A DNA stretch of 34,054 nt from an uncultured Oscillospiraceae bacterium (GTDB lineage Bacteria > Bacillota > Clostridia > Oscillospirales > Oscillospiraceae), in contig CANQNS010000017.1 in assembly GCA_947625285.1 (NCBI GenBank), positions 1 through 34,054 on the forward strand. The letters run 5' to 3'. Positions within the stretch are counted from its first letter, which is position 1. Each line of letters opens with the position of its first letter. The notes beneath the pieces are model-generated. The model was not told the origin of the DNA, made no database searches, and was given only the letters and a program-made list of their open reading frames with translations. Of the stretch, positions 8,341 through 14,158 are shown piece after piece. The translations under genes and the position numbers were made by a program.

Positions 8341-10185
8341 ATGGCGACATCGCAAACGGAAAAAAAGGCGCGCAAACGCCATCATATGACGCCGGGCCAA
8401 AAGCTGTTGTTCATCGTGGTGCTGATGGCGGTATTCGCGGTGTGCAGCACGGTCTTTTTCGACCTGAACTCCATGGAGGAGGCCTATGAGCCGGCGGAGA
8501 ACAGCTCGGACTGGCCCGATCCCGTGCATGCCTATGTGCTGGCCCAGGAGGGCACCTTGACGGCCACCTTTTACAACGAGGGCCTGGCCCCCATCGGTGA
8601 GTACGGCCGTGGCACGGAGATCGAGCTGGAGAGCTGGGAGCCCTTTTCGGCCGAGAACGGCGAGGAGTATTACCACGCCTATCTGGACGGCCAGATGGGC
8701 TATATCCACTGCCAGAACGTGACCGACGACCAGTCCGCCCTGCTTCTGGAGGCCCAGCTCTATGTGCGCTCCACGGTCAATATGCTCCAGGAGGCCGACG
8801 ACTGCCTGATCGGCCCCCTGGCCCAGAAGGGCACCCTGCTGCGGATCGTGGGCTATGACTACTTCCGGGCCGACGGCACCGTCAATATGTACCACGTCAT
8901 GATGGGCGAGGAATTTGGCTGGATCAAGTCCGAATATGTGGCGATGGATTACGGCGAGGCCATGAGCAACTGGAACGACGACAACGACAGCTACGGCGCC
9001 CACGTGTTCCGCGGCGACGATTACGGCGGCGGCGACGCCGGCGATCTGGACTACTGGCCCCATGAGAAGGGCGACTTCTCCGACCAGGGCAACGAGATGC
9101 CCGTGGATACATACGCGCTGTATATCACCGCCGACCAGGTCAATCCGTCCACCGTCGCCCAGTATCTGGACTTGGCGGAGGGTACCCAGATCAACGCCTT
9201 CGTTGTCACGCTCATGGAGAACTTCCAGCTTGCCTACCCCTCCCCCTGGCTGAAGCAGGCGGACCTGCTGGACGAGTACACCGTGACCGGGTCCCTGAAC
9301 GAGACCAAGGAAGCCATCCAGATGCTCAAGGACGCGGGCTATTATGTGATCGGCCGTCTGACTACCTTCCAGGACTCCGCCCTGGCTACCGCACGGCCGG
9401 AGTGGAGCATCACCGACTGGGGCGGGCAGCTGAAGCAGATGAGCGAGAGCTACTGGCCCAGCCCCTTCTGCCGGGACGTGTGGCAGGTGAAGGTGGCGTT
9501 CGCCGCCGAGGCGGTGGACACCTTCGGCCTCAACGAAGTCCAGTTCGACTATGTCCGTTTCCCCGACTATATCCAGAATTACGAGAACGAGGGCTCCGTG
9601 GATCTGAAAAACACCGGCAGCGAATCCAAGGCCCAAGCCCTCCAGCGGTTCCTCACCTACGCCACCGACGTGATCCACGCCCACGGGGCCTATGTGGGCG
9701 CGGATATGTTCGGTGAGACCGGCAACTACTACGTGGCTCCCTACGGCCAGTACTGGCCCGCCATCTCCAACGTGGTGGACGTGATCTGCGGGATGCCCTA
9801 CCCCGACCACTTTGGCACCTACTACGAGAACAACGACCGCATCGTGCCCTATAAGCGGCCCTACAAGTCCACCAACGACTGGGGCATAAAGGTCAGCGAC
9901 CGGCAGACGGAGTGCGGCTCCCCCGCCGTCACCCGCACCTGGATACAGACCTGGGACGATTACGGCTATGAGTACGACTCGCTGAACATCATCCGCCAGA
10001 TCGTGGCCCTGTACGACGCGGACATCACCGGCGGGTACATGCTCTGGCACGGCAACGGCTCCCTGTTCGTTTCGGAGAAGCTGCCGGAGGTGCTCCAATA
10101 TGACTTTTTGAGCCTTTATAAAAAGTCCGAGGCGGCCAACCAGCTCCTGTCCGATTACATGCAGCTCAAGACCGAGGACGACTGA
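8341..10185 (+). CDS. Membrane-anchored putative glycoside hydrolase (DUF4015 type) with SH3-like domains
   Basis: 614 residues. A basic N-terminus and one membrane segment (about residues 21-40) make it a signal-anchored extracellular protein. Residues about 60-200 hold two SH3-like repeats (GYIHCQNV and GWIKSEYVAMD end them), possibly for cell-wall binding. From about residue 255 (ALYITADQVN) to 580 lies a TIM-barrel-type domain with INAFVVTL, DAGYYVIGRLTTF, VQFDYVRFP (about 400-408) and GADMFGE, matching the DUF4015 putative glycosyl hydrolase family; the acidic residues in the DYVRFP and GADMFGE strands are likely catalytic. Substrate unknown. ATG 8341 follows GGGAGG with 4 bases spacing; an extension to 8227 would run over the promoter. 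Single-gene unit ending at a strong terminator. Confidence 0.85.
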   Translation: MATSQTEKKARKRHHMTPGQKLLFIVVLMAVFAVCSTVFFDLNSMEEAYEPAENSSDWPDPVHAYVLAQEGTLTATFYNEGLAPIGEYGRGTEIELESWEPFSAENGEEYYHAYLDGQMGYIHCQNVTDDQSALLLEAQLYVRSTVNMLQEADDCLIGPLAQKGTLLRIVGYDYFRADGTVNMYHVMMGEEFGWIKSEYVAMDYGEAMSNWNDDNDSYGAHVFRGDDYGGGDAGDLDYWPHEKGDFSDQGNEMPVDTYALYITADQVNPSTVAQYLDLAEGTQINAFVVTLMENFQLAYPSPWLKQADLLDEYTVTGSLNETKEAIQMLKDAGYYVIGRLTTFQDSALATARPEWSITDWGGQLKQMSESYWPSPFCRDVWQVKVAFAAEAVDTFGLNEVQFDYVRFPDYIQNYENEGSVDLKNTGSESKAQALQRFLTYATDVIHAHGAYVGADMFGETGNYYVAPYGQYWPAISNVVDVICGMPYPDHFGTYYENNDRIVPYKRPYKSTNDWGIKVSDRQTECGSPAVTRTWIQTWDDYGYEYDSLNIIRQIVALYDADITGGYMLWHGNGSLFVSEKLPEVLQYDFLSLYKKSEAANQLLSDYMQLKTEDD

Positions 10186-10273: not shown

Positions 10274-10339
10274 TTTTAATGTCGAATATTATAATAATGG
10301 ATAAGACCGCGTTTGCGGGAAGGCACAGGTATACGAAAG

Positions 10340-11713
10340 ATGGGTAAGCTGAAATTTTATCTGGCCCTTTGGGCGGCCAAGCTGTCCAAACCGGCGCTGA
10401 AGATCACCAAGCACAACGGCACCAACTTCCCCGGGGAGCTGGCGGTCCGGATCTGTCCGGACTTTCTCCGGTATGTTGCCAAGCCGGAGCACGTCATCGC
10501 CGTCACCGGCACCAACGGCAAGACCACCGTGTCGAACCTGTTGTGCGACATCCTGGAGATGGACGGCAAAAAGGTGCTGGATAACCGCTACGGCTCCAAC
10601 ATCATCTCCGGCGTCGCCACCAGTCTGATAAACGGCGTCAGCGTCTTTAACCGCTCCCGGTACCATGTGGCGGTGCTGGAGATCGACGAGCGGTCCTCCA
10701 AGCGCATCTATCCCTTCATGAAGCCGGATATGCTGGTGCTGACTAACCTGTTCCGGGACTCCATCATGCGCAACGCCCATCCCCAGTATATCGCGGACTT
10801 CCTCACGGACAGCATCCCGCCGGAGACAAAGCTGGTGGTGAACGCCGACGACCTGATCGCCGCCTCCGTGGCCCCGGACAACCCCCGGGTGTACTTCGGC
10901 ATCGAGCGCATGGACACGGACGTGACCGAGTGCGTCAACCTTATCAACGACATCCGCATCTGCCCCAAATGCAACGGGGACCTGAAATACGAGTACCTGC
11001 GCTATCACCACATCGGCAAGGCCTACTGCCCCCGCTGCGGCTTCCGGGCCCCGGAGTACGACTACGCGGGCCGGGACGTGGATCTGGAGCACATGACTAT
11101 GACTATCGCGGACAAGGAGGGCTCCGCCACCTACCGGCTGCTGTCGGACGGGGTGTTCAACATCTATAACATGGTCACCGCCGCCGCCCTGCTGCGGGAG
11201 CTCGGCATGACCCATGAGCAGATCGCCGGGTATATGGACAAGGCCCATGTGGTGGAGACCCGCTACAACGTGGAGCACGTGGGCAATGTGGACCTGGTGA
11301 TGCAGATGGCTAAGGAGAAGAACGCCCTGGCCTGCTCCCGGGCCTTCGACTACGTTTCCCAGCAGCCCGGCCGCAAAGAGCTGTTCCTCATGATGAACTG
11401 CCTGGGGGACGAAAAGCACTGGTCGGAAAACGTCTGCTGGCTGTATGACTGCGACTTTGAGTTTCTGGCCCGGGAGGGCATAGACCACCTGATCGCCACC
11501 GGCCCCCGGGCGCGGGATTACCGGCTGCGGCTGCTGCTGGCGGGGGTGCCGGAGGAGCGCATCGACTGCGAGGAGGACGAGTTCAAGGCCACGGAAAAGC
11601 TGCGCTTCGACCCCGGCAGCCAGGTCTATATGTTCTACGGCACCGACTCGCTGACCCTGGCCTATAAGGTCCGGGAAAAGGTGAAAAAGCTGGCGGAGGA
11701 GGCGGCAAAATGA
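10340..11713 (+). CDS. murT: Lipid II isoglutaminyl synthase, Mur-ligase-like subunit MurT
   Basis: 457 residues. A Mur-ligase central domain with the ATP loop GTNGKTT (57-63), an inserted four-Cys zinc ribbon (Cys208, Cys211, Cys230, Cys233) that marks MurT among Mur ligases, and a C-terminal DUF1727 domain ending in LAYKVREKVKKL. With the glutaminase GatD, MurT amidates the D-glutamate of the lipid II stem peptide to D-isoglutamine at the inner membrane face. ATG 10340 is chosen by homology of MGKLKFYLALWAAKLS; the ribosome site is weak (GAAAG just before it), and a TTG start at 10313 is possible but no better. Its stop overlaps the gatD start by 4 bases (ATGA). The partner has lost its glutaminase residues, so the ammonia source for this MurT is in question. 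Confidence 0.93.
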   Translation: MGKLKFYLALWAAKLSKPALKITKHNGTNFPGELAVRICPDFLRYVAKPEHVIAVTGTNGKTTVSNLLCDILEMDGKKVLDNRYGSNIISGVATSLINGVSVFNRSRYHVAVLEIDERSSKRIYPFMKPDMLVLTNLFRDSIMRNAHPQYIADFLTDSIPPETKLVVNADDLIAASVAPDNPRVYFGIERMDTDVTECVNLINDIRICPKCNGDLKYEYLRYHHIGKAYCPRCGFRAPEYDYAGRDVDLEHMTMTIADKEGSATYRLLSDGVFNIYNMVTAAALLRELGMTHEQIAGYMDKAHVVETRYNVEHVGNVDLVMQMAKEKNALACSRAFDYVSQQPGRKELFLMMNCLGDEKHWSENVCWLYDCDFEFLAREGIDHLIATGPRARDYRLRLLLAGVPEERIDCEEDEFKATEKLRFDPGSQVYMFYGTDSLTLAYKVREKVKKLAEEAAK

Positions 11714-12423
11714 AGATCGAAGTCCTGTACCCGGAGCTTTGCAACCTCTATGGCGACCTGGCAAACGCCAAGTACCTGGCCCGGTCCTGCGGCGCGGAGC
11801 TGGTAAACACCGCCCTTGCCGATCAGCCCCGGTTTTTGACGGAGGACGTTTCCATGGTCTACATGGGCGGCACCACCGAGCGGGGCCAGGTCATCGTCCG
11901 GGACGCCTTCGCCCCCTATCTGGAGGGGCTGAAAGAGCGCACCGAGGCGGGAGGCCTCACCCTGATCACCGGCAACGCCATGGAGATATTCGGTGAGTAT
12001 ATCGAGGATGAGGACGGCTCCCGGGAGGCCATGCTGAATCTGTTCCCCCTCTACGCGGACCGGCACTTCATGAACCGCTATAACTCCCTGTACCTGGGCC
12101 GGCTGGAGGCGGAGGACATCTCCATCGTGGGCTTCAAGAGCCAGTTCGGCCACTCCTACGGCGTCAACGTCGAGCCCCTGTTCCAGACCGTCCGGGGCGC
12201 GGGCATCAACCCCGCCGAAAAGGCCGAGGGCGTCCGGCGCAATAACCTGATGGCTACCTACCTGATCGGCCCGCTGGTACTGCTGAACCCGCCCTTCGCC
12301 AAGTATCTGCTGCGGCTCATGGGAGTGGAGGAGCCCGTCCTGGCCTTTGAGGAGGCCGCCATGGACGTGTACGCCCACCGGCTGGAGCAGTTCTCCCAGC
12401 CCGACCGGGGCTTCATCTACTGA
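11710..12423 (+). CDS. gatD: GatD-like class I glutamine amidotransferase subunit, catalytic residues replaced
   Basis: 237 residues, the normal GatD length, starting at ATG 11710 inside the murT stop. The fold landmarks are intact: LYPELCNLYGD near the start, the YMGGTTERGQ strand, NNLMATYLIGPL and a CobQ/CobB-like C-terminus. However, the nucleophile elbow normally read as (I)CGG(Y/F)Q is ITGNAMEIFG, with Thr87 where the Cys belongs, and the TYLHGP histidine is Ile186 (TYLIGP). The GFENH-GR-type segment that contacts substrate is GFKSQFGHSYG. The frame is uninterrupted and codon use is normal, so this is not a sequencing slip at one site. In family terms it should not hydrolyse glutamine by the usual Cys-His mechanism; it may be a structural partner of MurT. 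Family assignment is firm, function is inference. Confidence 0.88.
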   Translation: MKIEVLYPELCNLYGDLANAKYLARSCGAELVNTALADQPRFLTEDVSMVYMGGTTERGQVIVRDAFAPYLEGLKERTEAGGLTLITGNAMEIFGEYIEDEDGSREAMLNLFPLYADRHFMNRYNSLYLGRLEAEDISIVGFKSQFGHSYGVNVEPLFQTVRGAGINPAEKAEGVRRNNLMATYLIGPLVLLNPPFAKYLLRLMGVEEPVLAFEEAAMDVYAHRLEQFSQPDRGFIY

Positions 12424-13138: not shown

Positions 13139-14158
13139 TTACCGCTTGAAGTCGGGCACGTATTTCAGGAACACGGGGAGCATGCCGGCCTTTTCCGGGG
13201 TCTGGGCGGGCAGCTGCCAGAAGTCGTGGGCGCAGTAGTTGTTGCCCTCGATGATGGCGGGGCCGTCGGGGGTGATGCCCACGTCCCAGCCCACATAGCG
13301 CATCTTGGGAAACACCATGGCCGCCTTCTTCACCAGCTCGCAGGCCTCCTGGAAGCAGGGGATCTCCCGGCCCACCAGCTTCACATGGGTCATGGGGTGC
13401 TCGTCGTAGACGATGCCCAGCGAGCCGTCCCCGCTGACGCCGGGGGAGCAGATGCGGCCGGTCTCCAGGTCCACCCGGCAGCCGAAGCCGTAGTTGTCCA
13501 CCACCCGGCCGTTCAGACCGTACTTCTGGGTGACGAAGATCACATGGGGCACGCCCTCATTGTCGATGAGGGTTATCATACGCATACAGTTCATGGCGTT
13601 GGGATAGACCTCCGCGTTCTGGGGGTGCTGCCGCAGCACCTCCTCCAAAAGCCAGGCGTCCTGCTTTTGCAGCTCCGCGTAGAAGCTGTCGAAGTCCGGG
13701 AAATCCGACAGGCTCACCTTGCTGCAGCCCTTGCCGCAGGAGCCGTGGGCGGGCTTGGAAAAGAGGGTCTGGTGCTTCTCGGCAAAGGCCCGGACCTCCT
13801 CCTTGGAGGCCTTGCGGAAATTGATCCAGTCCCGGTGGATGAAGTCGGCAAAGGTGGTGTCGAACTCCTCTTTGTCGTTGAAGTAGTGCTCAAAGGACAT
13901 GTCGTTCAGGAACATGACAAGATCCTTGGAGATCATGCGGGTCACGTAGGTGGAACGCTGCTCATCGTTCAGGTCCCAGAAGCCGAAGGTCACATAGTCG
14001 AAGTACCCCGCGCCAAACTTCCGGGCGCAGTGGATCATGTCGGCGGTGAGCCACAGCTTGCTCTTGCCGGACTTGTCGTGGGCCCGCTGGAGCACCTCCG
14101 CGAATTTCTTATACCGCATGCCGGACAGCACGCGCAGATAATACTTGACGGACGCCAT
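13139..14158 (-). CDS. ATP-grasp-like protein (sugar-transfer-associated ATP-grasp/hexapeptide-transferase family)
   Basis: 339 residues, soluble. I recognise the ATP-grasp arrangement from KPAHGSCGKG (glycine-rich nucleotide loop, about residues 135-144), DAWLLEEVL (adenine-side strand), RMITLIDN, VDLETG and the closing GWDVGITPDGPAIIEGNNYCAHDF, where Asp, Glu and Asn bind Mg-ATP. Family members are found in polysaccharide and cell-surface clusters, but substrates are largely unknown. Here it is the last gene of an operon with alanine racemase, only 3 bases after nhaC, with GGGAG 8 bases before its ATG. An acyl- or peptide-ligase role at the envelope is inference from this context. Confidence 0.8.
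   Translation of the reverse strand: MASVKYYLRVLSGMRYKKFAEVLQRAHDKSGKSKLWLTADMIHCARKFGAGYFDYVTFGFWDLNDEQRSTYVTRMISKDLVMFLNDMSFEHYFNDKEEFDTTFADFIHRDWINFRKASKEEVRAFAEKHQTLFSKPAHGSCGKGCSKVSLSDFPDFDSFYAELQKQDAWLLEEVLRQHPQNAEVYPNAMNCMRMITLIDNEGVPHVIFVTQKYGLNGRVVDNYGFGCRVDLETGRICSPGVSGDGSLGIVYDEHPMTHVKLVGREIPCFQEACELVKKAAMVFPKMRYVGWDVGITPDGPAIIEGNNYCAHDFWQLPAQTPEKAGMLPVFLKYVPDFKR

Follow-up and report, generated by a model that had tools for sequence, protein, structure and literature searches.

The window, by which we mean the whole stretch of 34,054 nucleotides analysed here, carries a murT gene directly followed by a gatD-like gene, and an earlier note on this DNA proposed that the GatD partner has lost the catalytic residues with which glutamine is hydrolysed. 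This raises the question of what a MurT-GatD pair does when its glutaminase half appears to be dead, and which amine, if any, it uses. The source bacterium is probably from an animal gut, and its genome (2.06 Mb, 97% complete, 46 contigs) was searched for a second GatD, as the earlier note had advised; none was found, and that candidate explanation is rejected. The gatD-like reading frame is open throughout its 237 codons and its start and the end of murT share 4 nt, in agreement with the earlier description of an intact frame, length and overlap (Table 1).

Active-site residues of GatD and MurT

The window GatD matches GATase_3 (PF07685) with 40.9 bits, above the Pfam cut-off of 27, and scores 58.3 and 56.5 bits with the NCBIfam GatD models, below their curated cut-offs of 450 and 400. 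Its relatives of solved structure are four distinct GatD sequences, including those of S. aureus (5n9m, 6gs2) and of 6fqb, which we take to be from S. pneumoniae. The window MurT matches Mur_ligase_M and MurT_C of Pfam as well as the PDB MurT chains 7q8e, 6gs2 and 6fqb, and gives 205 and 190 bits with the NCBIfam MurT models, for which the cut-off is 800.

Table 1. Features at the murT-gatD locus, in window coordinates.
Feature	Coordinates	Strand	Remarks
DUF4015 putative glycosyl hydrolase domain protein	8341-10182	+	just upstream of murT
murT, Mur ligase family protein	10340..11713	+	457 aa from ATG; longer TTG start at 10313 possible
MurT P-loop GTNGKT	10508..10525	+	kept
MurT Arg118	10691..10693	+	newly conserved, next to Mg-binding Asp-Glu pair; canonical Ala
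MurT Asn145 and His147	10772..10780	+	newly conserved, active-site/gate loop; canonical Tyr and Glu
MurT Asn364	11429..11431	+	replaces triad Asp (S. aureus D349)
gatD-like ORF	11710..12423	+	ATG start, 237 aa; class I glutaminase-type domain lacking catalytic Cys and His
GatD Glu57	11878..11880	+	invariant in type A; canonical Asp
GatD elbow LITGNAMEIFG	11962..11994	+	Gly88 (11971-11973) at Cys site; Asn89 and Glu92 newly conserved
GatD Arg123	12076..12078	+	glutamine-capturing Arg (S. pneumoniae Arg142, S. aureus Arg128), kept
GatD Ile186	12265..12267	+	at catalytic His (S. aureus His189)
ATP-grasp protein (ATPgrasp_ST)	13139..14158	-	candidate functional partner; 716 bp from gatD, convergent

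A glutamine-hydrolysing GatD needs the Cys and His that correspond to S. aureus Cys94 and His189, and the window protein has Gly88 and Ile186 in their places. The elbow LITGNAMEIFG (residues 85-95) aligns without gaps to canonical GatD and to the solved S. aureus GatD in profile alignments, in which Gly88 occupies the Cys position and Thr87 that of the Ile preceding it; the loss at the elbow reported earlier is thus real, but its site is Gly88 and not Thr87. The replacement of the TYLHGP histidine by Ile186 is borne out both by the motif TYLIGP and by alignment to S. aureus GatD, and the substrate loop is indeed altered, reading GFKSQFGHSYG at residues 141-151. The proposed alignment to related proteins, here 51 homologues from the genus and family, contains none with an aligned Cys or His. 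The glutamine-capturing Arg is retained.

Altogether 167 GatD proteins were read from the family and genus matches: 60 with an ENH loop, 76 of type A (the window type) and 31 of type B, types A and B being dead forms that lack the canonical ENH loop. At the Cys site the 107 proteins of types A and B have Gly in 106 cases and Ala in one, and none has the catalytic His. Both residues are present in 56 of the 60 ENH-loop proteins, with one or both absent in the other four; because 'canonical' is used here for an ENH loop together with Cys and His, 56/56 holds by definition and 56/60 is the informative figure. The difference between 0/107 and 56/60 argues that the replacements do not reflect chance. 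Several other positions are strongly conserved, with Arg123 and Glu57 each present in 76/76 type A and 29/31 type B proteins, Asn89 in 76/76 and 19/31, and an acidic residue (Glu or Asp) at position 92 in 76/76 and 27/31. The alignments give good support to the prediction that the dead GatD subunit does not hydrolyse glutamine.

In S. aureus the triad is completed from the ligase side, GatD C94 and H189 acting with MurT D349, and a D349N change severely reduces activity (PMC6113224); in S. pneumoniae, MurT D355A is described as lowering activity without abolishing it (PMC6085368). The window MurT has Asn364 at the D349 site. Among 204 MurT partners compared at this position, Asp is found in 58/58 canonical, 3/3 degenerate and 0/74 type A proteins (Asn in 61), in 2/31 of type B (Glu in 29) and in 8/38 of the other dead MurT proteins, where some loci are counted twice.

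The ligase residues themselves are kept. The P-loop Lys, the Mg ligands and the acceptor Asn are all present in the window MurT, and K59, N85, E110, D112, E113, D136 and R140 (pneumococcal numbers) are found in 31/31 type B proteins and in 70/70 type A rows with letters at these sites, four further type A rows being gapped. No row with letters at Asn85, Asp112 and Glu113 departs from these residues (most read NADD), and the ribose-contact Asn322 is in 68/74 type A and 31/31 type B proteins. Because the P-loop, Mg and acceptor residues are retained, there is good support for the window MurT still being an ATP-dependent ligase, which would activate a carboxyl as an acyl-phosphate.

Three MurT positions have acquired conserved residues characteristic of the dead forms. 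Arg118 is present in a fraction of 0.91 of type A, 1.00 of type B and 0.84 of other dead proteins (canonical Ala, 0.91), Asn145 in 1.00, 1.00 and 0.88, and His147 in 0.90, 0.94 and 0.88, respectively. The loop that carries the Asn145 and His147 sites borders the GatD gate, and an Ala substitution at S. pneumoniae Glu143, the site of His147, is reported to have a minor effect (both from PMC6085368).

Distribution and history of the dead form

A search of 250 genomes of the family gave GatD matches in 152, and GatD was read in 140, the 12 other matching genomes having weak matches that lie outside this count; since a dead GatD served as query, some of the 98 genomes that gave no match may hold canonical genes that escaped the search. 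The 140 genomes comprise 55 with canonical GatD only (one of them with two copies), 81 with dead forms and four with degenerate canonical-like proteins. Type A is present in 55 of the 81 dead genomes (one also has type B) and type B in the other 26, and seven of the 81 contain two or three dead GatD (G115, G004, G006, G134, G200, G264 and G267). A canonical and a dead GatD do not occur together in any of the 140.

Beyond the family, matches were obtained in 208 of 391 genomes sampled from the class and in 132 of 398 sampled from the phylum. The 28 best-scoring newly read loci of the class sample are 26 dead and two canonical, whereas outside the class 27 loci were read and all are canonical; the loci in both samples are the best-scoring ones, a choice that favours dead forms. 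Dead loci are distributed over 13 families of the class, the window's own and 12 further (including one locus from the phylum sample). The best 80 of 321 relatives in a scan of named genomes are mostly metagenome assemblies labelled Oscillospiraceae, Lachnospiraceae or Clostridia, and they include the cultured organism Sporobacter termitidis DSM 10068, whose match to the dead profile marks it as a carrier. According to a published survey, murT-gatD is widespread in Clostridiales (PMC6085368). Among the matches listed in the literature searched, we found no description of the dead GatD clade and nothing on point about ATPgrasp_ST or group B ligases.

In a MurT tree of 154 rows with a midpoint root, a single branch with SH-aLRT support of 99 separates 125 dead rows from 29 canonical or degenerate ones. 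The rows represent a random draw of 26 of the 58 canonical MurT proteins and 125 of the 143 dead ones after duplicates and short rows were left out, and the tree was built with a quick method and has some long branches. The 112 family rows likewise require one change between canonical and dead. The Cys and His losses are therefore common to the clade and not independent within it; independent losses inside the dead clade are rejected, and the earlier argument from independent loss at three active-site segments falls with them. Its conclusion, a selected change rather than decay, fares better, since one supported branch splits dead from canonical and the clade is deep, has invariant residues of its own and retains a conserved ligase.

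Four canonical-like GatD proteins (L062, L284, L320 and L331, from G209, G051, G107 and G117, respectively) keep an ENH-type loop and have separate losses of Cys and/or His. The MurT partners of three of these lie on the canonical side of the tree.

Genes neighbouring the dead pairs

A gene for diaminobutyrate--2-oxoglutarate transaminase is situated directly beside a dead gatD at eight loci in four lineages (L199/L205; L211/L215/L217/L223; L176; and L039). Three of these transaminases were tested, and all score above the NF006733 cut-off and two above that of TIGR02407. In L176 (4695-10261) the order is transaminase, gatD, murT, murT, gatD, such that two dead pairs stand in tandem, and its gatD has 61% identity to that of the window. 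For most canonical loci the flank covered was 1.5 to 3 kb, so that a lack of linkage at these loci holds at short range.

Genome-wide, the transaminase is found in 24 of the 250 family genomes (23 above the cut-off): in 18/55 with type A, where one (G177) has a fragment under the cut-off, in 2/26 with type B, in 0/55 with canonical GatD and in four without a GatD match. It is absent from the window genome and from 37 of the 55 type A genomes. Of the 18 type A genomes with a transaminase gene, 17 do not have it next to gatD; there it mostly stands in different surroundings, often adjoining sua5-, coaE- and M18 aminopeptidase-like genes (named by eye). Ectoine synthesis is rejected as the reason for its presence, as no ectoine synthase exceeds the cut-off in 17 genomes searched, 16 of which have the transaminase; there is a single match under the cut-off, in G023.

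A role for diaminobutyrate as residue 3 of the peptide stem is probably also to be rejected. A search of 13 genomes for MurE gave a match in 11, and in all of these, whether their GatD is dead or canonical, MurE contains DNPR, which we take to be the motif of meso-diaminopimelate ligases; the stem is thus probably a meso-diaminopimelate one, and diaminobutyrate would serve another use. This exclusion is loosened by second MurE-like ligases without DNPR in 2/11 genomes. These ligases have DDPD or DDPG instead and correspond to L395 (G158) and L396 (G056).

At the window locus a rubrerythrin gene lies between gatD and the ATP-grasp gene, so the linkage here is a loose one. ATP-grasp genes stand beside dead pairs in about seven arrangements in several lineages: overlapping or abutting downstream (G001, G003, G004, G006 and G267), 61 bp downstream (G158), directly upstream of murT (11 loci, plus G172 and G091), divergent (G174), and convergent in the window's lineage. 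The ATP-grasp gene adjoins the transaminase in G023, G119, G094 and G231. With a threshold of 150 bits, chosen after the scores were known, the ATP-grasp protein is found in 29/81 dead genomes, 0/55 canonical genomes and 15 genomes without a read GatD; at 100 bits the counts are 30/81 dead and 3/55 canonical. Four genomes without a GatD match (G023, G043, G055 and G215) contain both the transaminase and the ATP-grasp gene, and in G023 the two are adjacent.

An independent-pair test of transaminase against ATP-grasp gave no signal, and one of dead state against transaminase had only one pair and no power. As dead versus canonical is a single change on the tree, the genome-wide associations of either gene cannot be corrected for ancestry, which the Fisher p values for them leave out of account. 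Moreover, several genes recur lineage by lineage at the 80 named loci (the best 80 of 321), at up to 10 loci each by a crude gene calling with frequent shadow ORFs; those other than the two above reach up to 6 or 7 loci each, so neighbourhood alone is little proof. A patatin-like protein gene is directly upstream of dead murT, preceded by an AddA-like helicase gene, at six loci that form one group (L180, L181, L183, L186, L187 and L194; by eye), and a TrmB-like methyltransferase gene, also named by eye, is upstream of murT at six loci.

Candidate reactions and their products

The window pair resembles the canonical MurT-GatD lipid II isoglutaminyl synthase of S. aureus and S. pneumoniae in its two-gene operon, its GATase_3 domain, its Mur ligase with a Cys4 ribbon, P-loop, Mg and acceptor residues, and its glutamine-capturing Arg. 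It differs in having other residues at all three triad positions (Cys, His and the MurT Asp), in the new GatD residues Glu57, Asn89 and Glu92 and MurT residues Arg118, Asn145 and His147, and in a two-residue insertion in the K-N-P loop. The explanation that we prefer, at a probability of roughly 43%, is that MurT-GatD has been repurposed to link the D-glutamate of lipid II to an amine that is not ammonia from glutamine and may be an amino acid. MurT would activate a carboxyl group, which is presumably the alpha-carboxyl of the D-glutamate residue in lipid I/II, and the attacking amine would be small and, with moderate support, most likely an amino acid. The dead GatD, with its kept Arg and the new conserved acidic residues where the active site used to be, would hold or position this amine. 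For some lineages 2,4-diaminobutyrate is the proposed amine, the gene for its synthesis lying beside the pair, and the ATP-grasp ligase would either lengthen the branch or make an adjacent amide bond. An amino acid as the nucleophile is consistent with the pocket's conservation, with the residues newly acquired by the ligase and with both neighbours, transaminase and ATP-grasp. The 'different reaction' that the earlier note had listed is thus favoured by the reshaped ligase site and some recurrent neighbours, short of proof. The full version, in which MurT and a pseudo-glutaminase attach amino acids to the alpha-carboxyl throughout the clade (2,4-diaminobutyrate in some lineages) and the ATP-grasp protein extends the branch, we consider unlikely as a whole.

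A simpler explanation than an amino-acid donor exists in that S. aureus GatD C94G still amidates with ammonia at pH 8.5: glutamine-dependent amidation is lost, the ammonia-dependent reaction is kept and GatD is still required (PMC3266927). By analogy the dead pair could be an ammonia-dependent amidotransferase that makes D-isoglutamine from free NH3/NH4+ in an ammonium-rich habitat, with the dead GatD as a structural subunit needed by MurT. The clade has Gly naturally at the C94 site and keeps the MurT ligase residues, and the free ammonium suggested earlier stays a serious rival, the strongest of those considered. The likeness to C94G extends to the Gly at the nucleophile and an apparently live ligase; unlike that designed single change, the Gly of the window clade is natural and clade-wide and comes with loss of the His and Asp as well as with newly conserved residues. 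At pH 7.5, however, NH3 or NH4Cl is used by neither wild type nor C94G (PMC3266927), and free ammonia leaves unexplained the kept Arg123 and invariant Glu57 and Asn89 of the type A pocket, the new MurT residues and the transaminase and ATP-grasp neighbours. The pair could instead be a MurT-GatD relative whose ligase takes some other polymer or a small molecule as its acceptor, GatD then serving as a scaffold or a sensor. NCBIfam scores far under the cut-offs for both proteins would fit this, as would the Pfam name of ATPgrasp_ST, given for an association with sugar transfer; we nevertheless regard it as improbable, since residues Asn85, Asp112 and Glu113 of MurT do not vary and the dead pair replaces the canonical one in the genomes read and never accompanies it.

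Class I glutaminases of other kinds are common in bacteria, and one encoded elsewhere could in principle feed ammonia to the window MurT. This finds no support: there is no other GatD in the window genome and no canonical and dead combination in the 140 genomes, and MurT has also lost the Asp with which it assists the GatD His, so the earlier suggestion of another glutaminase has very little in its favour. Pseudogene decay or an assembly error in one genome, for which a fragmented assembly of 46 contigs might speak, is refuted by a dead state recurring in 107 type A and B proteins, in 13 families and, judging by the profile match, in Sporobacter termitidis DSM 10068, and by the invariant residues, and has a negligible chance of being correct.

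Group B peptidoglycan, in which the bridge is on the alpha-carboxyl of D-glutamate, is the kind of product expected if the preferred reading holds and an amino acid is joined at the D-glutamate carboxyl. Group B stems are unlike meso-diaminopimelate stems, and the clade differs from group B in that MurE of the genomes examined has DNPR, presumably a meso-diaminopimelate ligase motif. Diaminobutyrate is among the group B variants covered in a review whose relevant passages assign no type of peptidoglycan to Oscillibacter or to several genera of Ruminococcaceae (PMC11382707). Archaeal MurT-like proteins (PMC11915815) are also MurT relatives without a working glutaminase partner, but there GatD is absent, whereas in the window clade it is kept and conserved.

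That many related bacteria share the dead state suggests that their walls may carry some other chemical group where amidation is the rule, and on the full version of our reading the pair would provide enzymes for unmapped peptidoglycan chemistry. The D-glutamate carboxyl is described as bearing on cross-linking in bacteria with canonical MurT-GatD, and NOD receptors sense peptidoglycan fragments with the D-glutamate residue (PMC11382707). Annotation by homology could name the dead pair a glutamine-dependent peptidoglycan amidase in many Clostridia, for which the mechanism would probably be wrong and the product perhaps so. A natural and old pseudo-glutaminase offers a test of GatD roles other than hydrolysis, and the cultured carrier Sporobacter termitidis makes the question of the donor directly testable.
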